In this document: one piece after another, positions 989 to 16,887 of the stretch
Numbering within the stretch: position 1 is the stretch's first letter
Layout: every line of letters starts with the position of its first letter
Translations under genes and position numbers: made by a program
Notes under the pieces: generated by a model
The model's input: the letters and a program-made list of their open reading frames with translations, nothing else
Database searches by the model: none
What the model was told of the DNA's origin: nothing
NCBI GenBank assembly: GCA_016764535.1
Contig: JAESRR010000178.1
Span: 3,192-20,078, forward strand
DNA from: Cohaesibacteraceae bacterium
GTDB lineage: Bacteria > Pseudomonadota > Alphaproteobacteria > Rhizobiales > Cohaesibacteraceae
Length of the DNA: 16,887 nucleotides
Reading direction: 5' to 3'

Positions 989-997
989 TGTGAAGTC

Positions 998-1633
998 CTA
1001 TTCTACCGAAATGAGTGATGTTGTGAGAATTTTGGCACCGGCTGCGCCAAAGGCCAGCGCAAAAGCACCTTCAAACCAGCGCCGCAATCTAATGTAGCTG
1101 GCTGTTATCCGGGCGCTTGAAAACAATATGGCGTAACCCTGAAATGCGGTGAACCCCAGACCAACAACAATGCACATGACAATTGCGACCGATTGCACAG
1201 GCGCAGTTGCAGGCACACCGATGGATACCAGCGAACCAAAAAACAGGATCGCCTTGGGGTTGGTGAGATGCACCGCAAGTCCCTTGAAATATGCCGCTTT
1301 GAGCGATTGCGGATTAAAGCCTATTGGCTTGGCGCTGGATGGCTTGATCGCCGAGCGCAGGGATTTATAGGCAAGGAACATCAGATAACAGGCACCCAGA
1401 TAACGGACGATCTCGAACATCCAGGCGTTTGTTTGCATCAATGCGGCAAGACCGAACATCGCCGACAAGGCCCAGATAATTGACGCGGTTGATATCCCCA
1501 CCGCCAGCACCATGCCATATTTGCGTCCGGCGTTCATCGATGTTCCGGCAATCGCAAGGGTCGCGGGACCAGGGCTTAGCGCCCCGATCATCGAAGCGCC
1601 AATAATCAGCGGTAAGTTGATCCCTTCAAGCAT
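998..1633 (-). CDS. LysE-family translocator, second of a tandem duplicate pair
   Basis: A 211-residue membrane protein with the LysE hallmarks SPGPAT (20-25) and LTNPKAILFF (123-132). It aligns without gaps, end to end, with the next gene upstream: about 130 of 211 positions are identical by hand count, including the C-terminal LRRWFEG and AGAKILTTS segments. This indicates a tandem duplication. Predicted function is proton-driven export of an amino acid or similar metabolite. I chose the ATG at 1633-1631, which has AGGA seven bases upstream; a TTG two codons earlier is also possible. The AGGA overlaps the TAG stop of the preceding gene, as it does at the next junction, so translation is probably coupled through the operon. 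Confidence 0.88.
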   Translation of the reverse strand: MLEGINLPLIIGASMIGALSPGPATLAIAGTSMNAGRKYGMVLAVGISTASIIWALSAMFGLAALMQTNAWMFEIVRYLGACYLMFLAYKSLRSAIKPSSAKPIGFNPQSLKAAYFKGLAVHLTNPKAILFFGSLVSIGVPATAPVQSVAIVMCIVVGLGFTAFQGYAILFSSARITASYIRLRRWFEGAFALAFGAAGAKILTTSLISVE

Positions 1634-1642
1634 GGTCAAATC

Positions 1643-2278
1643 CTATTCAGCAGTGACGATAGAGGTGGTGAGAATTTTGGCACCGGCAATACCAAACCCC
1701 AGCGCAAAAACACCCTCAAACCAGCGGCGCAGTTTGACATAACCCGCTGTCACCCTGGCGCTTGAGAACATCAGCGCATAACCGTGAAAAACAATGACGC
1801 TGAGCGTGAACACAGATCCAATCACCAGCAATAATGTCTGCGGCGATGCACCGGAAGGTATGCCCAGCGAATAGAGCGATCCGAAAAACAGGATGGCTTT
1901 TGGGTTAGTGAGATGGATCGCCAGCCCCTTGCCGTAAGCCGCGCGCATCGATGCGGTTTTCATGCCGCCGCTTTCCACGTCGCCGGATTTAAACGCTGAA
2001 CGCAGAGACTTGTACGCCAGATAGAGCAGGTAGGCCGCACCAAAATAGCGCACAATTTCAAACAACCAGGCGTTGGCCATCATCACGGCAGCAAGACCAA
2101 AGGCAGCAGATACAGACCAGATCAAGGACCCGGTTGCAATCCCGGCAGCAAGCGCCAGACCGTATTTACGACCCGATTTCATTGAGGTTCCGGCAAGCGC
2201 CATCGTTGCCGGACCAGGGCTCGCCGACGCCACAAACGCAGCCACAAGAATAAGGGGGAGATTGATATCATTGAGCAT
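1643..2278 (-). CDS. LysE-family translocator, first of a tandem duplicate pair
   Basis: A 211-residue inner-membrane exporter of the LysE family, with SPGPAT at 20-25 and LTNPKAILFF at 123-132, closely matching its downstream duplicate. The open frame extends 41 codons further upstream. That extension is hydrophilic, cysteine-rich and unlike the family, whereas MLNDINLPLI aligns exactly with the start of the paralog, so the ATG at 2278-2276 is preferred; AGGTG lies a few bases upstream. It is the first gene of the exporter and phosphoesterase operon, so the promoter should lie between it and the repeat-filled gap ending near 2487. The substrate is unknown. Confidence 0.87.
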   Translation of the reverse strand: MLNDINLPLILVAAFVASASPGPATMALAGTSMKSGRKYGLALAAGIATGSLIWSVSAAFGLAAVMMANAWLFEIVRYFGAAYLLYLAYKSLRSAFKSGDVESGGMKTASMRAAYGKGLAIHLTNPKAILFFGSLYSLGIPSGASPQTLLLVIGSVFTLSVIVFHGYALMFSSARVTAGYVKLRRWFEGVFALGFGIAGAKILTTSIVTAE

Positions 2279-2808
2279 GGATACACCTGGCGGGGAAGCA
2301 GAAAAGCAGACCTTCACCATAACCGTCGGATAGAAAAAGGAAAGACCTTTTGTTGCATCCACGTCAAGCTGATGACAACCCGCGCACTGACTACGACACA
2401 CGGCTTTCGAGCTACTTACAGTCCAAACGGATCCTCGTCCAGCGCTCGGGTGAACAACGGCAATAGATGATCTCTTTGACTCCGCATGATGGATTCTGAA
2501 ATAAATTCAGAATGACAGGGAACGCGCCGATAATTCCGAAAAAACGCAACTTCTTCAGTGATTTGACACCAACACAAACACACCCTCTGTGTCATGCTGA
2601 CGAAGGTCAGTATCCATAGTAACGCCCGGGCGCAAGGCGCGGAGGGATCGTCAGCAAAAACACCATAACCACCTCCATACTCCACGCCAGATCACCATCC
2701 CCTGCGACATTACAGCCCGGTTTATGGTCGCGCGATCAAGTGCCATAATTCACCCCGATTTGAATTGCATCCTCGCCGCGATATTTCAGACAGGACCACA
2801 GCAAAAAC
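2279..2808. other. Intergenic gap between divergent genes, mostly repeat
   Basis: No gene is supported here. The gap separates the minus-strand exporter operon from the plus-strand multicopper oxidase, so it must hold both promoters, though I cannot identify convincing -35/-10 pairs. It contains one intact 133-bp palindromic repeat. The short reading frames across it are translations of that repeat and recur at other copies. Confidence 0.6.
2487..2619. repeat. REPIN/MITE-like inverted-pair repeat, copy 1
   Basis: The left half has stem ATTCTGAA/TTCAGAAT with loop ATAAA. The right half has stem ATGCTGAC/GTCAGTAT with loop GAAG and ends ATCCATAG. This right half is a covarying variant of the commoner ATGCTGAT/ATCAGCAT form. 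Length is 133 bp. Confidence 0.85.
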
Positions 2809-4251: not shown

Positions 4252-4384
4252 TGATGGATCCTGAACAAATTTCAGAATGACGTGGAGGGTGATGCCAAAG
4301 CCTGATAAACACAACAATATCAGTTGTTTAATACCAAATTTACCCCAACCGCTCCGTCACCCTGATGTAGATCAGGGTCCATAG
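4252..4384. repeat. REPIN/MITE-like repeat, copy 2
   Basis: 133 bp, starting 34 bp after the oxidase stop codon. The left stem ATCCTGAA/TTCAGAAT is a mixed form with one mismatch. The right stem is ACCCTGAT/ATCAGGGT with loop GTAG, a fully paired variant of the ATGCTGAT stem. No separate terminator is visible for the oxidase, so this may end its transcript. Confidence 0.83.
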
Positions 4385-4390
4385 CCCGGC

Positions 4391-4487
4391 CTTACGGCAA
4401 AGCACGACACTGGCCGCGACACACCGCGAACAACCTGGCTCCATAGCAGAATATTCAACACCCTTTGACATGGTAGTAATCTCCGCA
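4391..4487. repeat. Conserved spacer block, type A
   Basis: This 97-bp block between two palindromic elements recurs nearly unchanged at 4885-4980. A shortened form starting GCACACCGCGAACAACCTGG recurs in every unit of the right-end tandem array. It contains GCAGAATATTCAA and ends TCTCCGCA immediately before the next element. Its conservation shows that spacer and element were amplified together. Confidence 0.75.
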
Positions 4488-4619
4488 CTATGGATTCCAG
4501 CCTCCGCTGGAATGACGACTTGGGAGTTATCAACACTGCATAAACACAACAACTTCAGCTGTTTAACTCCAACACCACATCACCCGCTCCGTCACCCTGA
4601 TGTCGATCAGCATCCATAG
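4488..4619. repeat. REPIN/MITE-like repeat, copy 3
   Basis: 132 bp. The left stem is ATTCCAGC/GCTGGAAT with a four-base loop CTCC, one base shorter than the ATAAA and CAAAT loops, which accounts for the missing base. The right half is a hybrid: the ACCCTGAT arm faces ATCAGCAT with loop GTCG, so it is imperfectly paired. Confidence 0.83.
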
Positions 4620-4745
4620 TCCGGCATCAATGCAAGGCATAGCGGCGATTGGTTCTTCGTTTCCGTGGCAGGCAAACACAATAAACAGGAATATTGCTGA
4701 AAGGCAGAGTTCTCAGCTTCTTCTGCAATCGCTGTGATCCCCGCA
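4620..4745. repeat. Conserved spacer block, type B
   Basis: It begins CCGGCATCAATGCAAGGC and ends with GCTGAAAGGCAGAGTTCTC followed by CTTCTTCTGCAATCG. Related copies lie between elements at 7292-7418 and, in part, at 7101-7158. This is a second spacer lineage, distinct from type A. Confidence 0.65.
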
Positions 4746-4878
4746 TGATGGATCCTGAACAAATTTCAGGATGACGATTTGGGTGTTACCAGCGCTGGAT
4801 AAACACAACAACTTCAGTTGTTTAATACCAAACTTACCCCAATCGCTCCGTCACCCTGATGCAGATCAGGGTCCATAG
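4746..4878. repeat. REPIN/MITE-like repeat, copy 4
   Basis: 133 bp, with fully paired left stem ATCCTGAA/TTCAGGAT (loop CAAAT) and right stem ACCCTGAT/ATCAGGGT (loop GCAG). It is the partner of copy 2 in a direct duplication offset by about 494 bp. Confidence 0.85.
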
Positions 4879-4884
4879 CCCGGC

Positions 4885-4980
4885 CTTACGGCAAAGTGCG
4901 ACACTGGCCGCGACACACCGCGAACAACCTGGCCCACGGCAGAATATTCAACACCCTTTGTCATGGTAGTAGTCTCCGCA
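4885..4980. repeat. Conserved spacer block, type A (second copy)
   Basis: Nearly identical to the block starting at 4391, from CTTACGGCAAAG to TCTCCGCA, with a few substitutions and small length differences. Confidence 0.72.
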
Positions 4981-5200
4981 CTATGGATTCCAGCCTTCGC
5001 TGGGTGAGAGCCGGTTGCGTAGCGATCAATTGTAATACAATGGAAGGATCGAACGGGCGCGAGAGAAAGGCGAAGCCCTCGAGTGCCCCGGACAGACACG
5101 AAGGATTTGTCCAGTGTCGGAATACCACCGCTCACCACCTTGTTTTGTTCAAGTTGTACCCACACCCACTGTGTCATGCTGATGTCGATCAGCATCCATA
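4981..5200. repeat. Interrupted REPIN/MITE-like repeat, copy 5
   Basis: The left end CTATGGATTCCAGCC..CGCTGG is normal up to about 5003. The second arm of the stem then breaks off, and about 160 bp of unrelated sequence follow before a normal right half (ATGCTGAT-GTCG-ATCAGCAT) ending CCATAA instead of CCATAG. The span is 220 bp instead of 133. The interior carries the inverted repeat ATTGTA-A-TACAAT at 5029-5041. It is either an insertion into an element or two half-elements left after recombination. Confidence 0.6.
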
Positions 5201-5723: not shown

Positions 5724-6848
5724 ATGACCAAATTTTATCAGGGATGCAGATTAGCCGCGCCTGTTTTCGGCATGTTTGCATTGATTGCAGCCAGCCCGGA
5801 AAACGCCCGGGCGGCAGGGACGGCCTGTGAGATACCCGCAGAGCCCAACGTCAACTGGACGTTTGATACCATTCACGGCACTTGCACTGCAAACATCGGA
5901 GGCGCAGGCGCGCAGACCATCACAACAGACGGGTTCACAATTGGTATCCGCCCCCGTCATATCCAGTTGGTCACGGCCCGGCGCATTCTCAATGGAGGTA
6001 CGGGGCCGCTCGTTCAGGGACCGTTTCTTGTTGCCAATACGTATACTGAACAGGGGATTACCGCCGTTTCCATAAGCCCGCTAACAATGGGTGGTGATCG
6101 TGCAACCTACGAGGTCATCCAGGCTCCGGCAGGCAGGGGCAGCATGGGTATGCGGGTTGGCAAGCCAAAAGATCCAGCGACTGGAGGGTTGTTGCCATTT
6201 GAACCTGGCGATACAGTCGAGCAAACCTACACCCTTGAAATTGAAAGAACCCGAACAATTGACCCGGAATTAACCGACACCTATGTCATTAAGGTAACTG
6301 CAGGCTTTGGTGGTGATGGCACTTCTCTTGTCCCAAAATCCATCACCATCTCCGGCGGTGCCTTTAATCCACCGCAGGCGACAGTCTGCCCGGGCACGCC
6401 CAAACAATTCACCAAAGCACAATATTGGGCATTTGACACTGACAAAGGTACCTGCCGTAAAGGTCAAAAACTCCCGGCGAACGGGTTCTCGATAAAAGCG
6501 GCACGTGCCAAACTCGGCTTCTTTGGTATGGCTGACGATAGTGTAGCAGATAACACCGGTGTTTTCAGTGATCTGTTCTTTTATGAAGGAAATCAGGTCA
6601 CCTCTGTTTCAATAAAATCCAACAGCAGCAGTCGGGTGAAGGAATCCCTGAATGTCGGCCGTGGAAACTATGGCCTTGTTTTTAAGAACAAGGGCAAGAG
6701 GGCCGTTGGTCGTTTCACTCTGGAAGTGAGGCAGGCCGGAAGGCCCTATACCATCAACATTAACGGGAAATTTGCAGGTGACAAAACAAAGTTTCCAAAA
6801 TTTTTCATCAAATCTGTGTCCATTCTTGGAGGTGCCTTTGACAAATAA
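5724..6848 (+). CDS. Secreted protein of unknown function with two tandem copies of one domain
   Basis: I do not recognise the family. The 374-residue product starts with a Sec-type signal (hydrophobic 9-24, likely cleavage after ARA near residue 30), so it is exported. The mature part is two copies of one domain of about 150-190 residues. Matching landmarks are C..WTFDTIHGTC and C..WAFDTDKGTC near the start of each copy, DGFTI and NGFSI, TAVSI and TSVSI, YTLEIER and FTLEVRQ, and SITISGGAFN and SVSILGGAFD at the ends. Each copy has a cysteine pair about 20-25 residues apart near its start, plausibly a disulfide. The pattern looks beta-rich. The second copy is more basic (many lysines). AGGGGAG seven bases upstream of the ATG supports the start. 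It stands alone between repeat clusters, so context gives no function. Confidence 0.85.
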   Translation: MTKFYQGCRLAAPVFGMFALIAASPENARAAGTACEIPAEPNVNWTFDTIHGTCTANIGGAGAQTITTDGFTIGIRPRHIQLVTARRILNGGTGPLVQGPFLVANTYTEQGITAVSISPLTMGGDRATYEVIQAPAGRGSMGMRVGKPKDPATGGLLPFEPGDTVEQTYTLEIERTRTIDPELTDTYVIKVTAGFGGDGTSLVPKSITISGGAFNPPQATVCPGTPKQFTKAQYWAFDTDKGTCRKGQKLPANGFSIKAARAKLGFFGMADDSVADNTGVFSDLFFYEGNQVTSVSIKSNSSSRVKESLNVGRGNYGLVFKNKGKRAVGRFTLEVRQAGRPYTININGKFAGDKTKFPKFFIKSVSILGGAFDK

Positions 6849-6967: not shown

Positions 6968-7100
6968 CGATGGATCCTGAACAAATTTCAGGATGACGAT
7001 TTGGGTTTTGTTTGCATTGGAAAAACACAAATGCGTTGGTGAATTACGCCAGATTTTCCCCCACCCGCCGTGTCATGCTGACGAAGGTCAGTATCCATAG
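6968..7100. repeat. REPIN/MITE-like repeat, copy 6
   Basis: 133 bp. Left stem ATCCTGAA/TTCAGGAT; right stem ATGCTGAC/GTCAGTAT with loop GAAG. The core between the halves (TTTGCATTGG..GCGTTGGTGAATTACG) is shared with copy 8 but not with most others, so these two are a sub-lineage. Confidence 0.85.
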
Positions 7101-7158
7101 TGCGGCATGGCTGAAAGGCAGAGTTCTCAGCTTCTTCTGCAATCGTGGTGATCCCGCA

Positions 7159-7291
7159 TGATGGATCCTGAAATAAATTCAGGATGACGTGGAGTGTGGG
7201 TTTATTACTGAAGAAACATAACTGCTTCAGTGATTTAACTCCAACATAACCACACCCACCTTGTCATGCTGATGTAGATCAGCATCCATAG
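7159..7291. repeat. REPIN/MITE-like repeat, copy 7
   Basis: 133 bp. The left stem ATCCTGAA/TTCAGGAT carries the ATAAA loop usually seen with the ATTCTGAA stem. The right stem is ATGCTGAT/ATCAGCAT with loop GTAG, followed by GTGCGG, which mirrors the CCGCAC found before several left ends. Confidence 0.85.
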
Positions 7292-7418
7292 TGCGGCATC
7301 AATGCAAGGCACAGCGGCGATAGGCTCTCCCAGGTCGAGCCGGGTGAAATACAGCAACAAGGAAAACTGCTGAAAGGCAGATCCCTCAACTTCTTCTGCA
7401 ATCGTTGTAATCCCGGCA

Positions 7419-7550
7419 TGATGGATTCCAGCCTTCGCTGGAATGACATGGTGGGCTTTGTTCGCATTGGAAAAACACATATGCGTTGGTGAATTACGCC
7501 AGATTTTCCCACACCCACCTTGTCATGCTGATGTAGATCAGCATCCATAG
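7419..7550. repeat. REPIN/MITE-like repeat, copy 8
   Basis: 132 bp. The left stem ATTCCAGC/GCTGGAAT has the short loop CTTC; the right stem is ATGCTGAT/ATCAGCAT with loop GTAG. It shares its core with copy 6. It ends 55 bp from the stop codon of the CDF transporter and may lie in its 3' untranslated region. Confidence 0.85.
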
Positions 7551-7605
7551 CCCGGCATCAATGCAAGGTCGGAGCATGTTGAGTACGTCGTTTCACGATC
7601 GCCGC

Positions 7606-8689: not shown

Positions 8690-8813
8690 TGCGGCAGCGC
8701 AGCGAATCTCGCACTGGAGGTGACATACCGCCTTCGAACTTCTCCCGGTTCAACCCAGATCAGGCCGGGCGCTCAGGTAAATCGCTGCCGTTAGCGATGT
8801 CTTCAACGCTGCA

Positions 8814-8946
8814 TGATGGATTCTGAAATAAATTCAGAATGACAGGGAGAGAATCGCAAGCACCGGAAAATCACAACAATTTCAGTTGCCTGGCTCCAGC
8901 ATAACCCCACCCTCTGTGTCACCCTGATGAAGATCACGGTCCATAG
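8814..8946. repeat. REPIN/MITE-like repeat, copy 10
   Basis: 133 bp. Left stem ATTCTGAA/TTCAGAAT, loop ATAAA. The right half ACCCTGAT/ATCACGGT with loop GAAG has one internal mismatch. Confidence 0.82.
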
Positions 8947-9022
8947 TGATGCCGGACATCTGGCACAGGGTTGGCTTTATAAACACCCTTCGTTCGCTCC
9001 TGGTCTCTGACATCGCACTCCC

Positions 9023-9880
9023 TCAGCGGAACCTTGCCCGATAGGCGCGCGGGGTCATGCCGTTTAACGCCCGGAACTGCCGATTGAAATTAGCCAGCGA
9101 CTGATATCCAACGGCATCTGCGATAAATGCCACCGGCTGCTCGCCGCTCGATAGCCTGGCGCAGGCGTCTCCAATCCGCATCCGCATCAAATAGCCCGAG
9201 ATTGTCGTATGGGTGTGCTTGCGGAACAACCGGTGCAGGCCCGACGGGCTCAGTGCTGCGATATCGGCCAGTTCCTCCAGCGATATCCCCCGATGATAAT
9301 TGCTGTGAATGTGGTTGAGCACCCGGTCGAGCCGCCCGGCGTTTTCTCCAGCTTGCTCATTCGAAGGCCCGGTACTGGCGAGGATCACAGCGCCATCATC
9401 ACGCGTCAGCGCCATCAATATCCCCAGCAGATCCAGCAATCCTTCCGACGAAGGTTTCGCGAACAACGCCTCAATATCATCCCGCGCTGCATCGGACGCA
9501 GCGCCAGCGAAGTGTAACCCCTTGCCAGCCCGCTGCAACATGGTGTCGAGCACGCCAAACTCCACACAGCTGGATGTTAATTGCGACAGCCATGCCGGAT
9601 GCAAATGCATCACCAGCGCCACATGTGGCTCTGTGAGACAATATTTGTCCCGCGATGCCCAGGTGTGTGGCAGATTGGGGCCAATCAGAACCAGATCACC
9701 ATCATCATATTCCCCTGTGTGATCTCCGATAAATCGTTGCCCGCGTGAGTTCAGCGTCAGGGTCAGCTCATACTCAATATGGTGATGCCATTGAAACGGG
9801 ATGCAATCATCAAGCCGTCGATCAAGACGGGCCCAGGAGGCATTGGGGTCCCCCAGCGGTTTTTCCAAAAACGGCTTCAT
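9023..9880 (-). CDS. AraC/XylS-family transcriptional regulator with N-terminal cupin
   Basis: A 285-residue regulator of normal AraC length. Residues about 20-100 form an effector-binding cupin: WHHHIEYELT (H32-H34), GDLVLIGPNLPHTW at 61-74 and MHLHP at 91-95. The C-terminal 100 residues hold the two helix-turn-helix units: ISLEELADIAALSPSGLHRL (199-218) and the signature FIADAVGYQSLANFNRQF (252-269), then the family end GMTPRAYR. It binds DNA and senses a small molecule through the cupin. It is divergent from the oxygenase gene with only 121 bp between starts, so it probably controls that gene and perhaps itself. A GAGGG lies about 11 bases upstream of the ATG. Confidence 0.93.
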   Translation of the reverse strand: MKPFLEKPLGDPNASWARLDRRLDDCIPFQWHHHIEYELTLTLNSRGQRFIGDHTGEYDDGDLVLIGPNLPHTWASRDKYCLTEPHVALVMHLHPAWLSQLTSSCVEFGVLDTMLQRAGKGLHFAGAASDAARDDIEALFAKPSSEGLLDLLGILMALTRDDGAVILASTGPSNEQAGENAGRLDRVLNHIHSNYHRGISLEELADIAALSPSGLHRLFRKHTHTTISGYLMRMRIGDACARLSSGEQPVAFIADAVGYQSLANFNRQFRALNGMTPRAYRARFR

Positions 9881-9908
9881 GGCGCAACTACCCTCACAAC
9901 AACGCCAT

Positions 9909-9923
9909 TATAGTATCACTATA
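9909..9923. promoter_or_regulatory. Palindrome between divergent regulator and oxygenase genes
   Basis: TATAGT-ATC-ACTATA is a perfect 6-bp inverted repeat around a 3-base centre. Read on either strand it gives TATAGT, one base from the TATAAT -10 consensus. It could therefore be a shared pair of -10 boxes for both genes or an operator. I see no good -35 at the right spacing on either side, and AraC proteins usually bind direct repeats, so the role is uncertain. Confidence 0.4.
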
Positions 9924-10001
9924 CGCAATGACAAAACAACATCACTCGGTCTGTCTGGCGTTAAATTGATCCTTAAAAAGCATCAGGGCGAGGAGACGAT
10001 C

Positions 10002-10937
10002 ATGCAAGCAGATCTGGTTTTGGGAGATCACCCCAGCACAAAAAAAGTCACAACACAGCTCAAAGATATCAAAAAGACCATGCCGCTTCGGGTGCTGAGC
10101 GAGGATGACTGGCAGCACTGGATCACCAAAGGCTATGTGATCGTCCGACAAATCGTCCCGGCAGCCAATGTCGAACGGCTGGTTGAAACCCTGCTGGAGT
10201 TTGATGAAAAAGATCCGGGCGACCCGACAACCTGGTATGCACCCCAGCGCCGCGACCACATGATGAAAGAACTTAACAATGCGGGCATGGTCGAGATCTA
10301 CAATCACCAGCACCTGTGGGACAACCGCATGGAGCAACGGGTCTATGATGCCTTTGTCGATATCTGGGATCGCACAGATCTGTGGGTGACGATTGATCGC
10401 GCCAATCTCAACCCACCTAAAAAAACCAAGGGCAACCGGGAGGGCTTCATCCATTGGGACGTTGATACATCGGTGCGACCACAGCCCATCGGCGTTCAGG
10501 GTGTGTTGAGCCTCAAAAAACAGGACGGTGATGTTGGTGGCTTCCAGTGTGTGCCGGAGATCTTTGAGAACTTTGAAAAATGGGAGAAAACCCAGCCCAC
10601 AGATCGTGATCCCCTCCACCCCGCTATGGAGGGTCTCACCGCTATCAATATCGAGATGGAGGCCGGTGATCTGTTGATCTTTAATTCCCTGCTCGCCCAT
10701 GGCGTACGACCCAACCACTCGGATGACCGCCTGCGCATGGCGCAATATATCTCGATGCAACCATCTGACTGGGAGAATGTAATTGAGCGTGAGGAACGGG
10801 TGCGTATCTGGCGCGAGCGCGGTAACCCCAAGCGTGGCGCTTTTCCCGGCGATCCGCGCGAATGGGAGAGGAAAAAACATCAGACAGCAAAACTAACGCC
10901 TCTGGGTGAAAAGCTGCTGGGTCTCACCAACTGGTGA
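10002..10937 (+). CDS. Phytanoyl-CoA dioxygenase (PhyH)-family Fe(II)/2-oxoglutarate oxygenase
   Basis: A 311-residue soluble enzyme of the PhyH family, non-haem iron oxygenases that hydroxylate a substrate while decarboxylating 2-oxoglutarate. The facial triad is visible: HWD (H151, D153) and the distal H233 in LLAHGVRPNHS, with R243 about ten residues later as the likely 2-oxoglutarate carboxylate anchor. The double-stranded beta-helix core spans about 125-255. The ectoine hydroxylase signature is absent, so EctD is unlikely; the substrate is unknown. I chose the ATG preceded by AGGAG at optimal spacing. The longer frame adds 67 codons whose 5' part lies inside the AraC gene and is not protein-like. 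There is no signal peptide, so it is cytoplasmic. The divergent AraC gene is the likely regulator. Confidence 0.9.
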   Translation: MQADLVLGDHPSTKKVTTQLKDIKKTMPLRVLSEDDWQHWITKGYVIVRQIVPAANVERLVETLLEFDEKDPGDPTTWYAPQRRDHMMKELNNAGMVEIYNHQHLWDNRMEQRVYDAFVDIWDRTDLWVTIDRANLNPPKKTKGNREGFIHWDVDTSVRPQPIGVQGVLSLKKQDGDVGGFQCVPEIFENFEKWEKTQPTDRDPLHPAMEGLTAINIEMEAGDLLIFNSLLAHGVRPNHSDDRLRMAQYISMQPSDWENVIEREERVRIWRERGNPKRGAFPGDPREWERKKHQTAKLTPLGEKLLGLTNW

Positions 10938-10947
10938 TACAGGCCGA

Positions 10948-10981
10948 AATAAAAAATGGGTGCAGCGCTTGCGCTACACCC
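10948..10981 (-). terminator. Rho-independent terminator of the binding-protein operon
   Basis: On the minus strand GGGTGTAGCGC and GCGCTGCACCC form an 11-bp stem with one mismatch and a minimal AA loop, directly followed by ATTTTTTATT. It starts 29 bp after the stop of the last binding-protein gene. On the plus strand the hairpin has no T-run, so it would only weakly stop the oxygenase transcript. Confidence 0.85.
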
Positions 10982-11010: not shown

Positions 11011-11844
11011 CTAGTGGCGACCAAAAGGTTCGAAACCTGGCAGCATAGCGGTGTTCCACTTGCCTTCTTCAGGCAGATACTCCGCGCGAATTTTAGCAAG
11101 TGTGCCATCTGTCACCATTGAGGCATAGGCATCTTCCCATTTTTTCACGACGTCCTTTGCAGTAGCGTTGGAGAAGCTGAGATAAAGACCCAGACGTCCA
11201 TAGGTTCCGACCGAGCGCACAGCCGTTGAATCTTTGCCCTGTTTCTTCAGCTCATGGGCCATCGCCACATCCGGCATTACCACCGCAACCGTACGACCTT
11301 TTAGCAGCATAAATGCCAGTTTACCGGCATCATGCACTTCCATGATATTTTCAAGACCGGCCTTTTTGGACATTTTTTGTGCACCGCCTCCGGCCTGCAT
11401 CAAAACACTGTCTACATTGCGGAGATCATCCAGATTTTCGATTTTCACATCGGAATTAGCGTCAATAAACACAGTTTCATTCATCGCAAATAACGGGCCG
11501 ACCCATTGAAATTTACCTTCACGTGATCCAACACGGGCCATAGAAAACAAACCCACATTGGGGATTTTCTCCGTCATTTTGTAGGCCCGTTTCCAGGGAA
11601 GAACCTCGATCTCGCCGGTATAGCCAACACGTTTGTTCATTTCGCGAACAATCGCGACGGCAATGCCTTTCAGTTCACCATCTTCCATATAGTCAAATGG
11701 CTCGAAATCCTCGGTCAAAATACGAACTTCAGTCGCACTTGCAAAAGCGCTCATGCCGGGCATCAATGTTGCCGCCAGTGTGAGCGCCAGTCCGGCGAGC
11801 GCTGATTTCAGAAAGGTGCTGCGTTTCATAACATTCTGTTTCAT
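11011..11844 (-). CDS. Family-3 periplasmic solute-binding protein, paralog 5 (last in operon)
   Basis: A 277-residue exported protein of the SBP_bac_3 / PBPb fold (COG0834-like). The signal peptide covers about 1-37 (hydrophobic 15-30, cleavage probably near AFASA). Conserved blocks shared by all five neighbours are ILTEDFEPFDYMEDGELKG at 42-60, VLPWKRAY at 81-88, SMARVGSREGKFQWVGPLF at 101-119, the QAGG loop at 150-153, D192 after the GRTVAVVM strand, and YLPEEGKW near the C-terminus. The ligand-loop HQ of the other four paralogs is replaced here by QK, so the ligand may differ. A 69-bp gap separates it from the preceding gene, the longest in the cluster, and AAAGGG precedes the start. No transporter subunit is present. 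Members normally bind polar amino acids or similar compounds. Confidence 0.88.
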   Translation of the reverse strand: MKQNVMKRSTFLKSALAGLALTLAATLMPGMSAFASATEVRILTEDFEPFDYMEDGELKGIAVAIVREMNKRVGYTGEIEVLPWKRAYKMTEKIPNVGLFSMARVGSREGKFQWVGPLFAMNETVFIDANSDVKIENLDDLRNVDSVLMQAGGGAQKMSKKAGLENIMEVHDAGKLAFMLLKGRTVAVVMPDVAMAHELKKQGKDSTAVRSVGTYGRLGLYLSFSNATAKDVVKKWEDAYASMVTDGTLAKIRAEYLPEEGKWNTAMLPGFEPFGRH

Positions 11845-11913
11845 TGCATTTTCCCTTTGTTGTGTTCTTTTTGGCCGGCAAGATCTCCCCCCGGCAGGTG
11901 GTTTATTTAAAAT

Positions 11914-12705
11914 CTAGAAAGAATATGCGTCGATTTCCGAAATCTGGTCGGCGTGCCAGTCCTGTGCATCGGGGACATATTGCGCCCGGATTTTATCAAG
12001 CGTTCCATCGGCCTTCATGGCTGCGTAGGCAGTGGTCCATTTCGCGATTTCGGTTTTTGAGGTCTTTTTGGAAAACCCAAGATAAAGCCGTGCTTCACCA
12101 AAAAACATCACCGGGGTAACAGTGCCATTTTCCTTACCCAGCTTTTTGAGTTCGTGCGCCAGACCCAGATCGGCTATCGCCAGCGCGTCGGTCCGCCCGC
12201 GCACCAGCATGGTGGCAAGACGATTAACGTCGTGAACTTCCATTATATTGGTGAGGCCATGTTTGACCAGCATCTGGTGCAACCCGCCGCCTGCTTGCGC
12301 CGCGATAGACCCCAGTTTTTTCAGATCGTTAAGTGAATTTACTTCAATTTCCTCTCCGGTCCGCATGAAGATATATTCGCGGGCAGAATAGAGCGGGCCG
12401 ACCCATTGAAATTCATCTTCCCGGACTGATGTACGCAACATCGAATAAATGCCGGTATTGGCATTGTCGTGCGCCATTTTGTACCCGCGCTTCCACGGCA
12501 ACATTTCCATGCTGACTTCACTGTCTACCCGACTGATAAGTTCCTTGACGATCGCTGGAGCAATGCCTTTGAATTCACCGTCTTCCATATAGTTAAATGG
12601 TGCGAAATCCTCGACAACAATGTGGATTTTCTCGGCAGCGACATTTGAGACACCCAGAGTCAGTCCGAGCAGCGCTGCGCCTATTGTCTTGCTCAATTTG
12701 TTCAT
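11914..12705 (-). CDS. Family-3 periplasmic solute-binding protein, paralog 4
   Basis: 263 residues from the ATG at 12705-12703, which has GAGGGA eight bases upstream; a TTG two codons earlier is less likely. The signal peptide is about 1-24 (ends NVAA-EKIH). Family blocks: VEDFAPFNYMEDGEFKG at 31-47, MLPWKRGY at 68-75, RTSVREDEFQWVGPLYS at 91-107, QAGGGLHQ at 137-144, D179, and YVPDAQDW near the end. It resembles paralog 5 most in NIMEVHD and AHELKKxGK, suggesting a more recent duplication. It starts two bases after the stop of paralog 3, so translation is probably coupled. The ligand is unknown. Confidence 0.88.
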   Translation of the reverse strand: MNKLSKTIGAALLGLTLGVSNVAAEKIHIVVEDFAPFNYMEDGEFKGIAPAIVKELISRVDSEVSMEMLPWKRGYKMAHDNANTGIYSMLRTSVREDEFQWVGPLYSAREYIFMRTGEEIEVNSLNDLKKLGSIAAQAGGGLHQMLVKHGLTNIMEVHDVNRLATMLVRGRTDALAIADLGLAHELKKLGKENGTVTPVMFFGEARLYLGFSKKTSKTEIAKWTTAYAAMKADGTLDKIRAQYVPDAQDWHADQISEIDAYSF

Positions 12706-12707
12706 GA

Positions 12708-13511
12708 TCAAAGTCCCTCGAGTTGCGGAGCGTCCCAGACATCGCTTGATGGCAAATACCGGTCCTGTATTCGTTGAAGCGTGCCGTCGTCGCGCATGGA
12801 TTTAAGAGCCGTGCGCCAGCGGCGAAGTACTTTGGGAGACGTCGCCGGGGAGAACCCGATATAGCTTCCCCACCCACTCGCACGCACCACGGGTTGTATG
12901 GAAGAATAGTCCTCGCCCATATCCTGCAATTGTCTGGCTACAAACAGATCGGAACTCATAATCGCGGTGACCCGCTTGTTGAGCAGCAAGTGCGAGATAC
13001 GCGAAATATCATGAACGCCCAGAACATTGGTTAGCCCCAGACTTTGCAAATATTGGTGATTGGCACCACCGGCCTGGGTGACGATTTGTTCAAGCTTTGC
13101 AAGATCGTCAATGGAGCTGATTTTTAGTTTTGAATCCCCATGCACAAAGATAAAAGTGTTGGCGGCGAACAGCGGCCCGACCCATTGAAATAAATCCTCA
13201 CGCACAGGTGTACGCGCCATGGAAAACAAACCTGTACCGGACCGGTTTTTAGCCTGTTCATAGCCGCGTTTCCAGGGCAGAATCTCGATAGGCTCAACAT
13301 GACCCATACGCTTTTGAAGCTCCCTGACAACTTCAGCACCAATACCTGTGAGCTGGCCATTTTCCATATATTGCAGGGGCGGATAAATCTCGGTGAGCAG
13401 TCGCACACTTTTTGCCTGGGCCAGGTTTAAACCAGGCCCGCTCCAAAGCATTATGGCTACAAAACCGCAGCAAACCCGTTTGATTGCGGTTTTCAGAAAC
13501 TCCATACTCAT
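12708..13511 (-). CDS. Family-3 periplasmic solute-binding protein, paralog 3
   Basis: 267 residues; the ATG at 13511 overlaps the TGA of paralog 2 (ATGA), and a second ATG lies two codons in. Signal peptide about 1-33, hydrophobic 13-32, likely cut after AQA. Family blocks: LLTEIYPPLQYMENGQLTG at 38-56, ILPWKRGY at 77-84, SMARTPVREDLFQWVGPLF at 97-115, QAGGANHQ at 146-153, D188 and YLPSSDVW near the end. The acidic ED of the first block (TEDF in paralogs 4 and 5) is EI here, and the usual FNY is LQY, a change near the predicted ligand cleft. Two cysteines (14, 15) in the signal do not form a standard lipobox. Confidence 0.88.
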   Translation of the reverse strand: MSMEFLKTAIKRVCCGFVAIMLWSGPGLNLAQAKSVRLLTEIYPPLQYMENGQLTGIGAEVVRELQKRMGHVEPIEILPWKRGYEQAKNRSGTGLFSMARTPVREDLFQWVGPLFAANTFIFVHGDSKLKISSIDDLAKLEQIVTQAGGANHQYLQSLGLTNVLGVHDISRISHLLLNKRVTAIMSSDLFVARQLQDMGEDYSSIQPVVRASGWGSYIGFSPATSPKVLRRWRTALKSMRDDGTLQRIQDRYLPSSDVWDAPQLEGL

Positions 13512-14317
13512 GAGGGGAACCCCTCAAACACCGGCGCGTTCCAGACATCATCGCCTGGCAAATATTGCTCGCGAATACGCTTGAGTGTGCCGTCGGCTTT
13601 CATCGCTTCAAAAGCTTCGGTCCAGGCATTGATAATTGTGTCCGGGGTTTGCTTGCCGAACCCCAGATACAAATCCCGCCTGCCAAGCGAGGTCACCGGC
13701 CGCACCGAAGAAAGCGGAACACCGGCATCCGCCAGATCCTTGGCGATCAAAACATCACTGGAAATTGTCGCAGCAACCCGGCCTTTCAGCAGCAATTGGG
13801 TTCTCTTTTCGAGGTCGAAAAGCGGGACAATATTTTTCACCCCGATTTTCTTCAACATCTGATGGTTTGCACCACCCGCCTGCAAGGCAATGCCCTCGAT
13901 GTTTTGCAGATCTTCAAGGGTCTCTATTTTCAGGGGATTGTCAGCGCGGGCGAATATGATCATGCCCATGCTGTAAAGCGGGCCAACCCAGTGAAATTTG
14001 TCTTCACGCTGCGCGATGCGCATCATCGAATACACACCAACGTCCGGCTTTGTCAGCGCTTCATTATACGCCCGTTTCCACGGCAGCACTTCAACCTTTG
14101 CTGTGTGCCCGACCCTGGCGCGCAGCTCATCAACAATTGCCGCACCGATGCCCTTGAGAACGCCGTCCTCAAGGTAATTTATCGGCTTGAAGTTTTCGGT
14201 CAGTATTCTGACATCGCCTGCTCCCGCATTTGCGTGAGACAATGTCTGTGCAATCAACAGCGCCACCGCAGGCAGCGCCAATATTGTTGATCGCAGGGTT
14301 CCCTCAGGAAATTTCAT
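13508..14317 (-). CDS. Family-3 periplasmic solute-binding protein, paralog 2
   Basis: 269 residues with a signal peptide about 1-32 (hydrophobic 10-25, cut near NAGA). Family blocks: ILTENFKPINYLEDGVLKG at 38-56, VLPWKRAY at 77-84, SMMRIAQREDKFHWVGPLYS at 97-116, QAGGANHQ at 146-153, D188 in TISSDV, and YLPGDDVW near the end. It groups with paralog 3 by the AGGANHQ loop and the SSD motif. GGGGAC stands upstream of the ATG, 14 bp after the stop of paralog 1; its own TGA overlaps the start of paralog 3. Predicted to be a periplasmic binding protein for an amino-acid-like ligand that is not yet assigned. Confidence 0.88.
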   Translation of the reverse strand: MKFPEGTLRSTILALPAVALLIAQTLSHANAGAGDVRILTENFKPINYLEDGVLKGIGAAIVDELRARVGHTAKVEVLPWKRAYNEALTKPDVGVYSMMRIAQREDKFHWVGPLYSMGMIIFARADNPLKIETLEDLQNIEGIALQAGGANHQMLKKIGVKNIVPLFDLEKRTQLLLKGRVAATISSDVLIAKDLADAGVPLSSVRPVTSLGRRDLYLGFGKQTPDTIINAWTEAFEAMKADGTLKRIREQYLPGDDVWNAPVFEGFPS

Positions 14318-14331
14318 GGCCCCGTCCCCGG

Positions 14332-15225
14332 CTAGCTACCTGTGTATCCAAAGGCTTCCAGCCCGGTGAGAAAATCTGCATTCCAGGTCGTTGAATCCGG
14401 AGCCCAGCGTTTTTTGATTTTGGCAACGGTGCCGTCTGAAATCATTTCAGCAAATGCATTTTGCCAGCGTGTGACAAATGCATCGGGTGTATCGGCGGAG
14501 AAGCCCAGATACAGATGCGCCACACCAAACATTGTTGCAGGGCGAACAGCAGATACGGCAATGCCGCGTTTTTTCAACTCATATGACATGGTGAAATCAC
14601 TGAGCAAAACAGCTGAAACGCGCCTGGTTAGCAGCATTTCAGGCATTTTGCCGATGTTATGCAATTCAAGAACGTCTTCTTTGTTGACCGATTTAAACAC
14701 CTGATGGGTTGAATTACCGGCCTGAATGGAAAGTGTGCCCATGTCGCGCAGATCTTCAACATTGTTCAGCACAACGTCATTGTCAGCCAGCACGAACAAA
14801 TAGTCCCGCACGCTGAACAACGGTCCAACCCAGCGGAAATTATTCTCCCGAACCGGGGTGCGAGAGAGCGAAAACAGGCCAACACGTGGTTTGGTCGACG
14901 CCATGTTAAAGGCCCGTTTCCATGGCAGAACCTCGACTTCCATGCCGGGCATGGTGCGGGCGATTAGTTCGTTGACGATCTCGGTTCCAACACCGGTAAC
15001 GGTGCCGCTCTCATCTACAAAATTAAAGGGTGCCCAGTCTTCCGTAATAATACGAACTTCAACTGCCCTTGCGTTCGGGGCCATGGTTGTAAACAGCAAT
15101 ATAAGAATGAATAAAAATGCCACGGCCTCTGCCAGCACGTAAAGATACTGGCCGGGTTTCTCCGGCATGTGCATATGATCTGTAAGATGATTGAGAAAAT
15201 GAAAATGCGGTTTCAAAACTGACAT
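14332..15225 (-). CDS. Family-3 periplasmic solute-binding protein, paralog 1 (first in operon), with long N-terminus
   Basis: 297 residues, the longest of the five. The usual signal segment (hydrophobic 29-48, possible cut after NARA) is preceded by about 25 residues rich in histidine (H7, H9, H13, H17, H19). Starting at M18 or M20 would remove most of this, but neither has a ribosome-binding site, whereas GGGGGC precedes the first ATG, so I keep the long form with caution. The segment might act as an uncleaved anchor. Family blocks: IITEDWAPFNF at 59-69, VLPWKRAF at 99-106, SLSRTPVRENNFRWVGPLFS at 119-138, QAGNSTHQ at 168-175, D210, and WAPDSTTW near the end. The first block has DESGT where the others have (E/N)DG. 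Confidence 0.85.
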   Translation of the reverse strand: MSVLKPHFHFLNHLTDHMHMPEKPGQYLYVLAEAVAFLFILILLFTTMAPNARAVEVRIITEDWAPFNFVDESGTVTGVGTEIVNELIARTMPGMEVEVLPWKRAFNMASTKPRVGLFSLSRTPVRENNFRWVGPLFSVRDYLFVLADNDVVLNNVEDLRDMGTLSIQAGNSTHQVFKSVNKEDVLELHNIGKMPEMLLTRRVSAVLLSDFTMSYELKKRGIAVSAVRPATMFGVAHLYLGFSADTPDAFVTRWQNAFAEMISDGTVAKIKKRWAPDSTTWNADFLTGLEAFGYTGS

Positions 15226-15650
15226 ATCGGTGCCCCCGTTGTTTGACTACCGGCACCTGGTTATGACCGAACACTATAATGCCCGGATCGGGAAGAAGGC
15301 TGCGCTCCCTTATGCGGAAGTCGCAGCCTGCTATAACCAGAAGAAATTCCCTTGGGGAGTTCCTCCGCCAGACTGCCAGGATATCACGCAAAATTGCAGT
15401 TCTAAAGTCGAGACTGATTTCCTCGTCTCCAAAATCTTAAAGAACGAACGGTCATTAAGTGTTTGATAAATCGATGTTTACCTGCTGGTAGGGTTTGAGG
15501 GGTGCCACCGTTTTTTGCACATCGCATGCATCTGAAATCCAGCGGCGAAATCAGTATGTTGGCATGGATTGAAGAGTTGGTATGGGATTATGCAAAGGCT
15601 GTTTACCATTATGATAATTCGGCAATACGGCAGAGTACGCACGGGATACG
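15226..15650. other. Leader/promoter region of the binding-protein operon, then unassigned sequence
   Basis: The promoter for the five-gene operon must lie here on the minus strand. The best -10-like boxes are TATAGT (15278-15273) and TTATAG further upstream, without convincing -35 partners. A plus-strand frame starting with GTG at 15230 lacks a ribosome-binding site and overlaps the leader, so I do not call it. From 15467 to 15650 I see nothing recognisable. Confidence 0.45.
15297..15329 (-). promoter_or_regulatory. Leader hairpin upstream of the binding-protein operon
   Basis: AGGCTGCG and CGCAGCCT form a perfect 8-bp stem with a 17-base loop, about 70 bp upstream of the first gene. On the operon's strand it is followed by TTCTTCCC, pyrimidine-rich but not a proper T-run. 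It could be an attenuator-like or stability element if transcription starts upstream of it, or merely part of the promoter region. Confidence 0.35.
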
Positions 15651-15719
15651 GCACACCGCGAACAACCTGGCTCGATAGCAGAATATTCAGCGCCCTTTGT
15701 CATGGTAGTAATCTCCGCA

Positions 15720-15852
15720 CTATGGATTCTGAACAAATTTCAGGATGACGATTTGGGTGTTACAAGCGCTGCATAAACTCAACAACTTCAGCTGTTTAAC
15801 TCCAACACCACATCACCCACCGTGTCATGCTGATGTAGATCAGCATCCATAG
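15720..15852. repeat. REPIN/MITE-like repeat, copy 11 (array unit 1)
   Basis: 133 bp. The left half is a hybrid of ATTCTGAA with TTCAGGAT and has one mismatch; the right stem is ATGCTGAT/ATCAGCAT with loop GTAG. Confidence 0.83.
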
Positions 15853-15955
15853 TGATGACTGACGGAAAGGCACGGCGGTAGAGTCGGCACACCGCGAACA
15901 ACCTGGCTCGATAGCAGAATATTCAACGCCCTTTGTCATGGTAGTAATCTCCGCA

Positions 15956-16088
15956 TGATGGATTCTGAAATAAATTCAGAATGACACAGAGAGTGTTGCG
16001 AAGGCCGGAAAAACTCTACAACTTCAGCGGTTTAACTCCACCGTAACCTCACCCCCTGTGTCATGCTGATGTAGATCAGCATCCATAG
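15956..16088. repeat. REPIN/MITE-like repeat, copy 12 (array unit 2)
   Basis: 133 bp. Left stem ATTCTGAA/TTCAGAAT, loop ATAAA; right stem ATGCTGAT/ATCAGCAT, loop GTAG. Confidence 0.85.
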
Positions 16089-16192
16089 TGATGACTAACG
16101 GAAAGGCACGGCGGTAGTTGTCGGCACATTGCAAACAACCTGGCTGCACGGCAGAATATTCAACACCCTTTGACATGGTTGCAATCTCCGCA

Positions 16193-16326
16193 CTATGGAT
16201 TCTGAAATAAATTCAGAATGACAATGTATTGGGTTCCACCGCCAGAAAAACACAGCAACTTCAGTTATTTGCCCCCACCACTCACCTCACCCCCTGTGTC
16301 ATGCTGATGTAGATCAGCATCCATAG
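16193..16326. repeat. REPIN/MITE-like repeat, copy 13 (array unit 3)
   Basis: 134 bp, with the same stems as copy 12. Its left end is preceded by CCGCA, giving CCGCACTATGGAT, the longest form of the terminal inverted repeat. Confidence 0.85.
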
Positions 16327-16429
16327 TGATGACTAACGGAAAGGCACGGCGGTAGTGTCGGCACACCGCGAACAACCCGGCTCCACGGCAGAATATTCAA
16401 CCTCTTCTGTCATCGTTGAATTCTCCGCA

Positions 16430-16562
16430 TGATGGATCCTGAACAAATTTCAGGATGACAAGGAGAGTGTTGCCAACGTCGGATAAACACAACAACTTCA
16501 GCTGTTTAACTCCGCCATCAATTCACCCCCTGTGTCATGCTGATGTCGATCAGCATCCATAG
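16430..16562. repeat. REPIN/MITE-like repeat, copy 14 (array unit 4)
   Basis: 133 bp. Left stem ATCCTGAA/TTCAGGAT with loop CAAAT; right stem ATGCTGAT/ATCAGCAT with loop GTCG. The left stem differs from the neighbouring units, so array units have exchanged or converted stem types. Confidence 0.85.
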
Positions 16563-16665
16563 TGATGACTGACGGAAAGGCACGGCGGTAGTGTCGGCAC
16601 ACCGCGAACAACCTGGCTCCACGGCAGAATATTCAATACCCTTTGCCATCGTTGCAATCTCCGCA

Positions 16666-16798
16666 TGATGGATTCTGAAATAAATTCAGAATGACAATGT
16701 ATTCGGTACCAACACCAGAAAAATCCAACAACTTCAGCTGTTTAACTCCAGGCTCACCTCACCCCCTGCGTCATGCTGATGTAGATCAGCATCCATAG
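16666..16798. repeat. REPIN/MITE-like repeat, copy 15 (array unit 5)
   Basis: 133 bp. Left stem ATTCTGAA/TTCAGAAT, loop ATAAA; right stem ATGCTGAT/ATCAGCAT, loop GTAG, preceded by TGCGTC instead of the usual TGTGTC. Confidence 0.85.
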
Positions 16799-16887
16799 TG
16801 ATGACTGACGGAAAGGCACGGCGGTAGTGTCGGCACACCGCGAACAACCTGGCTGCACGGCAGAATATTCAACACCCTTTGACATGG

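Follow-up and report, generated by a model that had tools for sequence, protein, structure and literature searches.

Five tandem SBP_bac_3 proteins in a Cohaesibacteraceae bacterium: probable coupling to signalling receptors rather than to transport

The window analyzed here is the whole 16,887-nucleotide stretch of DNA from a Cohaesibacteraceae bacterium (genome G000), which runs to the end of its contig (C234:3192-20078 of 20078). According to the ORF listing and Pfam searches, five genes for SBP_bac_3 solute-binding proteins (SBPs), denoted S1 to S5, lie head to tail on the minus strand between positions 11011 and 15225 (Table 1). The five tandem family-3 binding proteins described in an earlier note on this DNA are thus confirmed, with scores of 43.9-51.4 bits against a PF00497 cut-off of 26.4 bits. 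All five frames are intact, and the proteins share 35.5-45.7% pairwise identity. S1 and S2 are 14 bp apart, S2 and S3 overlap by 4 bp, S3 and S4 either are 2 bp apart or overlap by 4 bp, and 69 bp separate S4 from S5; S4 starts with TTG or with an ATG two codons downstream, of which the ATG gives the 2-bp gap noted earlier and the TTG the 4-bp overlap.

Table 1. Features of the cluster and its flanks (positions in the window)
Feature	Position	Strand	Details
S1, SBP_bac_3 protein, first gene of the cluster	14332-15225	-	297 aa; PF00497 50.2 bits
S2, SBP_bac_3 protein	13508-14317	-	269 aa; PF00497 49.3 bits
S3, SBP_bac_3 protein	12708-13511	-	267 aa; PF00497 51.4 bits; overlaps S2 by 4 bp
S4, SBP_bac_3 protein	11914-12711	-	265 aa; PF00497 48.2 bits
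S5, SBP_bac_3 protein, last gene of the cluster	11011-11844	-	277 aa; PF00497 43.9 bits
Probable intrinsic terminator of the cluster	10958-10981	-	10-pair stem, 7 G-C, loop of 4, T-run
PhyH-type oxygenase	9942-10937	convergent to cluster	Pfam scan
236-bp repeat array upstream of the cluster	15649-16887		TRF, 5.2 copies; contig ends at the array; boundary, outside the function

The cluster is flanked, as previously reported, by an oxygenase gene on one side and a repeat array on the other; further copies of the 236-bp repeat family occur at other places in the window. Given that terminator-like sites are not enriched in the region (7 versus 7.2 in shuffled sequences), the terminator was called on the strength of the site and its position between convergent genes, not on the number of sites. 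The promoter scan found 3 sites versus 6.4 expected, the Rfam scan yielded 0 matches, and the search of plasmids returned only matches below 60% identity (44 records). Domain scanning of 13 window ORFs, taken from the 72 listed (60 aa or longer; the remaining ORFs were inspected by reading), identified no ABC permease, ATPase, kinase or chemoreceptor. The reported lack of a transporter beside the five genes is therefore borne out for the window ORFs scanned, with 1,662 bp known upstream of the cluster, and a permease and an ATPase in the same operon, as in ABC amino-acid importers (PAAT), were not found within these bounds.

A sixth close paralog, 46% identical to S2, is encoded on contig C262. 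In the phylogenetic tree, S1-S5, the C262 copy and P0002, the ortholog of S1 from another assembly (91% identical), form a single clade (support 99/97), in which S1 groups with the C262 copy; the five proteins and the C262 copy are a lineage-specific expansion. S3 also has an ortholog in another assembly (P0045, 80% identical); the longest contig is 10,843 bp for the clusters of both P0002 and P0045. The existence of these orthologs indicates that the diverged paralogs are being retained.

PF00497 is the sole Pfam family matched by the five proteins, and the NCBIfam matches are to amino-acid or ectoine SBP models, below the cut-off. The AlphaFold model of S2, the one protein modelled (pLDDT 92.6), resembles amino-acid SBPs. 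R126 and D210 (S1 numbering) are invariant across the five and align with the R and D of AncQR and AncCDT-1; in SBP_bac_3 proteins, this Arg and Asp bind the ligand through its alpha-carboxylate and alpha-amino groups. Given this invariance of residues aligned with those of solved amino-acid-binding relatives, each of the five probably binds an amino-acid-like ligand. Each is probably exported to the periplasm. We consider it fairly likely that the divergence of the paralogs extends to their ligands, with at least two different ones recognized among the five; the set of several related ligands suggested in the earlier note is plausible.

A collection of 80 related loci contradicts the premise of the earlier note that a binding protein is usually single: in this subfamily, fused doubles account for 38 loci, tandem genes for 22 and single genes for 20. 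A search for permease, ATPase and kinase ORFs with a few reference proteins, which can miss distant ones, detected a polar amino-acid permease-like ORF at up to 1.5 kb from the SBP in 1 of the 80 loci and at up to 5 kb in 2. Permease and ATPase genes sharing an operon with the SBP, which the earlier note had asked about, were sought and not found in the loci examined; given that no relative examined has such an operon, simple loss of the transporter from an ABC operon was rejected as the leading reading. Kinase-like ORFs occur within 1.5 kb in 11 of the 80 loci, or as 11 of 264 ORFs within this distance versus 7 of 809 beyond it. As the sole argument, kinase adjacency was set aside as suggestive yet weak until a shared CHASE5-like domain emerged. 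A CHASE5-like receptor is present in the fetched flanks of 7 of the 80 loci; none was seen in the flanks of the other 73, including those of the Pseudomonas pairs and of Kiloniella (L044), the nearest named relative, where the SBP adjoins housekeeping genes. The domain (A3) was also not found in two genomes with triplets (G627, G443).

Among 60 relatives of the source organism (own genome excluded), the S2-type SBP is present in 7 genomes, 3 of them from one genus, and in all 7 a gene for a CHASE5-like receptor is directly adjacent (L202, L203, L269, L330-L333). The outputs of these receptors differ (GGDEF-EAL in 5, a nucleotide cyclase in 1, an MCP in 1), yet their periplasmic parts are related, and profile comparison of this periplasmic domain with canonical CHASE5 gives a probability of 99.3 (E 4.6e-20). 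The genome search detects the domain in 6 of the 7, the seventh (G026) being a weak case recovered only in a local profile search (6e-7), compared with 5 of the 53 relatives that lack the SBP (Fisher 5.9e-5, own genome left out, phylogeny ignored). The SBP follows the receptor in the seven relatives, including the three from the same family (L202, L330, L331), whereas in canonical CHASE5 loci it mostly precedes the receptor. An MCP neighbour in another genome (G684, L200) was excluded from the A3 alignment and counts because its BLAST matches to other receptors lie near HAMP. Near home, there is good support for coupling of this subfamily to receptors.

The association also appears when the receptors are taken as the starting point. 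An SBP_bac_3-like ORF adjoins 33 of 58 CHASE5 genes (43 genomes, one phylum sample), compared with 1 of 246 ORFs located more than two genes away from a CHASE5 gene; 32 of these 33 neighbours are on the 5' side of the receptor and 26 are on the same strand. PF00497 at E of 1e-3 or below confirms 19 of the 33, and the others depend on profiles that we built, one of them partly from SBPs beside the receptors of the A3 test described below (locus G560 is in both sets). As a control we used CHASE8, the sensor domain of YfiN, with which YfiR interacts: 0 of 20 loci have an SBP_bac_3-like neighbour, and ten neighbours picked by eye, from 10 of these 20 loci, all proved YfiR-like.

Starting from the CHASE5-like A3 domain, an adjacent SBP_bac_3-like ORF was found in 11 of 19 loci (own profiles, counted from the listing), two of the matches being weak (L257, 6e-5; L260, 1e-5). 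The 19 loci are the best 24 rows without G657 (in the A3 alignment), G614, G420 and G638 (taken as near-duplicates) and the second G429 row; G042, added for its already seen SBP, stands outside the 19. One locus (L252) with an SBP-like neighbour that has no Pfam match was scored as a miss, and the receptor ORF of another (L262), as called, has no Pfam domain. Across the phylum, the A3 domain was detected in 29 of 41 genomes with the SBP (undetected in 12) versus 73 of 357, with phylogeny ignored and all counts, like the largest array seen, being lower bounds as at most 6-9 candidates were scored per genome. Gene adjacency is no proof of interaction between an SBP and a kinase: AgtS showed no binding to AgtB or PA0602 (PMC11113362). 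Of the options offered by the earlier note (a distant transporter, a sensor, or a non-transport role such as scavenging or signalling), the sensor gains from these results, given the CHASE5-like receptors adjoining relatives near home and the frequent SBP_bac_3-like neighbours of CHASE5 receptors, whereas the distant transporter receives little support.

Taken for the five proteins themselves, receptor coupling rather than transport appears probable. The whole explanation, that the five are a receptor-coupled SBP_bac_3 tandem expansion that signals without transport, is one that we favor with some reservation. We infer that the five function like the receptor-linked SBPs of the relatives. Each SBP would capture an amino-acid-like compound in the periplasm, and the loaded protein would dock on a membrane-bound signalling protein through the latter's periplasmic domain, which is CHASE5-type (single-Cache-like), and whose cytoplasmic part would be switched without any transport.

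The search for the partner in the window's own genome identified one CHASE5 receptor, a 1489-aa hybrid histidine kinase (C269:222-4691) accompanied by a response regulator. Its domain is canonical CHASE5 (E 3.5e-27), unlike the diverged type that adjoins the SBP near home, and it has no SBP beside it; likewise, neither the five genes (5' side known for 1.66 kb) nor the C262 copy has a directly adjacent receptor. That contig C269 abuts the contig of the window was considered and rejected: its end lacks the 236-bp repeat and lies in the response regulator gene. The C269 kinase can be proposed only tentatively as the partner of the five, this estimate being lowered because a GGDEF protein with a CHASE domain (PF03924, not CHASE5), located 1.9 kb from the C262 paralog in divergent orientation with two small ORFs between, is a second candidate. 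The GGDEF-EAL receptor of a relative (G002) has 25 matches in the genome via its output domains (best row, residues 371-819), which does not allow a partner to be named. Should the C269 kinase be the partner, several ligands might converge on one phosphorelay via the kinase and its response regulator. The broader generalization, with CHASE5 as a general docking domain for SBP_bac_3 and six SBPs, five of them in one operon, reporting different amino-acid-like ligands to one hybrid kinase, is in our view rather doubtful.

The same genome was searched for a distant permease, as the earlier note had suggested. Permeases matching TIGR01726 are found on eight other contigs, none of which carries the five genes or the C262 copy, and the polar amino-acid permeases have an SBP_bac_3 match on their own contig, except one cut by the contig end (C72) and one that belongs to another system (C289); no free polar amino-acid permease was found in this genome. 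These observations, along with the adjacent receptors of all seven SBP-bearing relatives and the scarcity of permease-like ORFs in the 80 loci, make it unlikely that the five supply different substrates to a shared polar amino-acid ABC transporter encoded elsewhere, even though the fold and ligand residues match those of amino-acid importers, a permease with its own SBP can be shared, several polar amino-acid permease operons are present, and transport genes adjoin the SBP in two genomes (in G713 the SBP is followed by an MFS gene, in L103 the SBP pair is followed by a binding protein of the TRAP type, NMT1_3). There is also a precedent in Borrelia, where five oligopeptide-binding proteins, which probably differ from one another in peptide range, serve one Opp system (PMC5736914); those peptide SBPs feed a transporter, whereas no transporter is linked to S1-S5.

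It is quite improbable that the five belong to an ordinary SBP-receptor operon with extra SBPs whose own CHASE5-like receptor lies just past the end of the contig or in the 13% of the genome that the assembly (87% complete, 302 contigs) does not cover. The contig does stop inside the repeat, 1.66 kb upstream of S1, and in the three relatives of the same family the receptor gene directly precedes the SBP. However, the approximately 400 bp upstream of S1 contain no convincing ORF and give way to at least 1.2 kb of repeats, which makes a directly co-transcribed upstream receptor unlikely, and the C262 copy, internal to its contig, likewise lacks a directly adjacent receptor. Scavenging or a dead duplication, with redundant paralogs of no distinct role kept by chance, has a parallel in large unexplained SBP redundancy such as that of TctC in Comamonas (PMC9602780) but is very improbable, given that the intact frames, the invariant ligand residues and the contrast between orthologs (80-91% identical, S1 and S3 only) and paralogs (36-46%) indicate genes that are retained and separately constrained.

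Orphan amino-acid-type SBPs, annotated as parts of ABC transporters, are frequent in genomes. With an SBP_bac_3-like neighbour beside more than half of the CHASE5 genes sampled, such an orphan SBP becomes a receptor input that can be tested, and CHASE5 acquires a predicted partner; in the library searched, CHASE5 is mentioned in three papers, all off topic judging by their titles, and PF17149 in none. If the five converge on one receptor, sensory range would have grown through duplication of a detachable ligand-binding subunit, as a many-to-one 'nose' in which the SBP, not the receptor, is duplicated in tandem. Such convergence, if true, would bear on the question, raised in PMC9602780, of why some bacteria keep many apparently redundant SBPs.

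Several known systems resemble the proposed arrangement in part. In YfiR-YfiN of Pseudomonas, a periplasmic partner likewise controls a receptor through its sensor domain, but YfiR has a different fold and acts as a repressor, and the receptor carries CHASE8 as its sensor domain. LuxP-LuxQ and TorT-TorS pair one SBP with each receptor, LuxP and TorT being members of other SBP families. NspS-MbaA is said to signal independently of transport. A similar pairing is seen in G002, G006, G011, G056 and G042, except that the SBP is the second gene there; NspS is a PotD-type polyamine SBP, one per receptor, whereas here SBP_bac_3 proteins are involved, five plus one, with no adjacent receptor. In Vibrio cholerae and Sinorhizobium meliloti, the NspS gene lies together with that of a GGDEF-EAL receptor bearing a periplasmic domain (PMC9993111). 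Sensor kinases of the BvgS type likewise use SBP_bac_3-type (Venus flytrap, VFT) input. The VFT domains of BvgS are part of the hybrid kinase itself, whereas S1-S5 are free proteins of 265-297 aa; among their relatives, the SBP domain is fused to kinases in five further loci (L188-L192; L188 and L189 checked by Pfam).

The window, which makes up the final 16,887 bases of a 20,078-base contig (G000:C234:3192-20078), belongs to an assembly of 302 contigs and 3.86 Mb that is 87% complete. The nearest named protein relatives of the window come from Kiloniella and Thalassospira, so that its source is probably alphaproteobacterial. The five SBP_bac_3 genes S1-S5 share 36-46% pairwise protein identity. 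The intergenic gaps from S1 to S5 are 14, -4, 2 (or -4) and 69 bp, and a strong stem-loop closes the gene row at its 3' end, where S5 is convergent with a PhyH-type oxygenase gene. The approximately 400 bp located 5' of S1 contain no convincing gene, and beyond them a 236-bp repeat array runs to the contig end, where the sequence covered on the 5' side of the cluster stops. The repeat unit is a member of a dispersed family with many copies in the intergenic stretches of the window, and short pieces of this family are also found on contig C253.

Coordinates of the S1-S5 cluster, other features of the window and loci elsewhere that are mentioned in the text
Feature	Location	Strand	Description
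S1-S5	window 15225-11011	minus	SBP_bac_3 (PF00497) genes, 265-297 aa each; all above the Pfam cut-off
Repeat array	window 15649-16887		236-bp unit repeated 5.2 times in tandem up to the contig end
Other copies of the repeat family	window 2480-2656, 4252-5003, 6969-7568, 8811-8957
LysE-type exporters (PF01810)	window 362-2401	minus	three tandem genes
LysE stretches	window 981-1635 and 1626-2280		68% DNA identity; second local tandem duplication in the window
ORF	window 5724-6848		374 aa; start signal-peptide-like by eye; no Pfam match
AraC-type regulator	window 9023-9880		adjoins the PhyH-type oxygenase gene
PhyH-type 2OG oxygenase	window 9942-10937		weak, sub-threshold match to chlorinating enzymes (TIGR01762, E 5e-5)
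Sixth close paralog	C262:7562-8431
CHASE-GGDEF protein	L021:10310-12067 (C262)		1.9 kb from the sixth paralog, divergent
Distant SBP_bac_3 pair	L020:8943-9737 and 9761-10651 (C219)		tandem; about 40 bits to the S1-S5 profile
SBP_bac_3 and dCache_1 matches in one protein	L046:8428-9900		490 aa, Candidatus Celaenobacter; a single-domain relative comes after it

Searching the same genome with TIGR01726 returned 11 polar amino-acid permease matches on eight contigs (one match below the cut-off), none of them on C234 or C262, the contigs that carry S1-S5 and the sixth close paralog, respectively. An SBP_bac_3 match is also present on six of the eight permease contigs; the permease operon on C72 is truncated by the contig end, and the C289 permease, judged by eye, seems to belong to another system that has a binding protein of its own. 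Of 80 related loci from the genome_contigs collection, 65 extend at least 1.5 kb on both flanks. Across the 80, one locus (L098) has a permease-like ORF at most 1.5 kb from the SBP, and a limit of 5 kb adds one more (L118); at the 1.5-kb limit, 11 loci have a kinase-like ORF. The frequency of kinase-like ORFs is 11/264 near the SBP versus 7/809 far from it. Two other transport-related neighbours were encountered: an MFS gene immediately follows the SBP in G713, and in L103 the gene after the SBP pair encodes a binding protein of the TRAP type (NMT1_3).

The neighbour of a related SBP is a hybrid kinase in 7 of the 80 loci, a HAMP-GGDEF-EAL protein in a genome of the same family as the window (G002), a HAMP nucleotide cyclase in a genome of the same order (G057) and an MCP in G684; in G657, a GGDEF protein is flanked by two SBPs, and five loci encode fusions of the SBP domain with a kinase (confirmed by Pfam for L188 and L189). 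SBP-GGDEF-SBP gene triplets in which the middle protein contains a CHASE5-like domain were observed in L197 and L251. Ten of these receptors differ in output, yet pairwise matches connect their periplasmic parts and survive trimming of the transmembrane ends (for example, L121-L203, 6e-10; L088-L101, 2e-6; L072-L197, 8e-6; L093-L202, 3e-4); the L202-L203 match weakens to 0.003 after trimming, and some pairs show no match. CHASE5 (PF17149) is matched by seven of the ten receptors, in every case below the cut-off, and profile comparison of the ten, taken together, with canonical CHASE5 gives a match with a probability of 99.3 (E 4.6e-20), although flanking transmembrane segments are part of both profiles.

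The association was examined from the SBP side in 61 genomes, comprising the source genome of the window and 60 relatives, where S2-type SBPs (E<=1e-10) were detected in eight. In all seven of these genomes other than the source genome, the SBP follows, on the same strand, an adjoining gene for a receptor with a CHASE5-like domain; six of these domains were detected by the genome search and that of G026 solely by a local profile search (6e-7). The receptor output is GGDEF-EAL in five of the seven and MCP in G026, and G056 encodes an additional second SBP without a CHASE5-like receptor. Of the 53 genomes that lack the SBP, five contain a CHASE5-like domain (exact test excluding the source genome and uncorrected for kinship, 5.9e-5).

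From the receptor side, all 58 CHASE5 matches outside the source genome (E<=1e-8), found in 43 of 398 genomes of the phylum, were analyzed. An SBP_bac_3-like ORF directly adjoins 33 of the 58 genes and lies within two genes of 35, compared with 1 of 246 among the farther ORFs of the same stretches. The adjoining SBP is on the 5' side of the receptor in 32 of the 33 cases and on the same strand in 26, with several 4-bp overlaps. Pfam assigns 19 of the 33 to PF00497, two to TctC and one to Lig_chan-Glu_bd; the remainder were identified by our profiles, and the training set of one such profile included some SBPs found beside CHASE5-like receptors. Some of the 25 misses have SBPs of other kinds as neighbours (Peripla_BP_6 in L306, Peripla_BP_4 in L318 and a sub-threshold ABC_sub_bind match in L278). 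For CHASE8, taken as a control, none of the best 20 of 77 matches (279 genomes) has an adjoining SBP_bac_3-like ORF. Ten neighbours picked by eye from ten of these 20 loci (L335-L354) are all YfiR/HmsC-like (PF13689), so that at least 10 of the 20 show this pairing, which parallels that of CHASE5 with SBPs. YfiR is described as a periplasmic partner of YfiN; thus, adjacency recovers a true partner in a case with a known answer.

The docking of ligand-loaded SBPs on receptors is already known, being an established mode that, in the passages of PMC9602780 covered here, extends to chemoreceptors, kinases and c-di-GMP enzymes. We propose that S1-S5, once loaded with ligand, would likewise dock on a membrane receptor, with the only detected CHASE5 hybrid kinase of the genome (on C269) as the most likely single partner. 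The CHASE5 domain of this kinase covers approximately residues 41-145. Signalling of S1-S5 via this kinase, which we infer from the receptor-coupled relatives, is weakened as a proposal because no CHASE5-like receptor is present in the fetched flanks of the Kiloniella relative or the Pseudomonas pairs, because no CHASE5-like domain was found in the triplet genomes G627 and G443, and because adjoining SBP and kinase genes need not interact, such interaction being sometimes absent according to the passages of PMC11113362 covered. The CHASE-GGDEF protein on C262 is a possible alternative receptor candidate.

CHASE5 as a frequent partner of SBP_bac_3 was not found in the literature searched by name and accession, which covered few subscription papers: the name occurs in three papers, whose titles are all off topic, and the accession in none. 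The passages covered of a c-di-GMP review (PMC8846402) name several CHASE families, CHASE5 not among them, and state that arginine sensing depends on ArtI as well as on the STM1987 dCache domain; in the main text of a 2022 SBP census (PMC9602780), the term 'CHASE' is absent.

Of the 17 PF00497 matches in the source genome, six match S2 at E<=1e-10, namely S1-S5 and the C262 copy, which scores 337 bits against the S1-S5 profile versus 72 bits for the next nearest protein compared (on C253). In a maximum-likelihood tree of 40 proteins, these six and P0002 form one clade (support 99/97), and tandem copies from other lineages (the G379 pair, the G706 pair and the G627/G712 triplets) form separate groups of their own; such grouping by lineage implies repeated duplication. 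The orthologs of S1 and S3 in another assembly (P0002 and P0045; 91% and 80% identical, respectively) are both in clusters with a longest contig of 10,843 bp, which suggests a putative single related contig bearing the cluster. The 80 related loci (L044-L123) include 38 fused double SBPs, 22 tandem gene pairs and 20 single genes, so that multiplicity is usual in this subfamily. The fused doubles are mostly 480-500 aa long, and many of them come from Bacteroidales and deltaproteobacterial assemblies. Five in tandem is the highest number seen in this analysis; the largest other array, across samples of 397 genomes for the order and 398 for the phylum, contains three, a lower bound given that few candidates were scored per genome. 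The more distant SBP pair on C219 is preceded by an ABC-ATPase-like 654-aa gene, and none of its listed neighbours is a permease.

With respect to the ligand, the structure predicted for S2 has a pLDDT of 92.6, and its matches are proteins that bind arginine, cystine or glutamine. In the alignments with AncQR and AncCDT-1, an Arg and an Asp of these two proteins coincide with an Arg and an Asp that are invariant across S1-S5. The loop after 'QAG' varies among the five (N-S-T, G-A-N, G-A-N, G-G-L and G-G-A), a pattern that is suggestive only and could reflect differing side-chain pockets.
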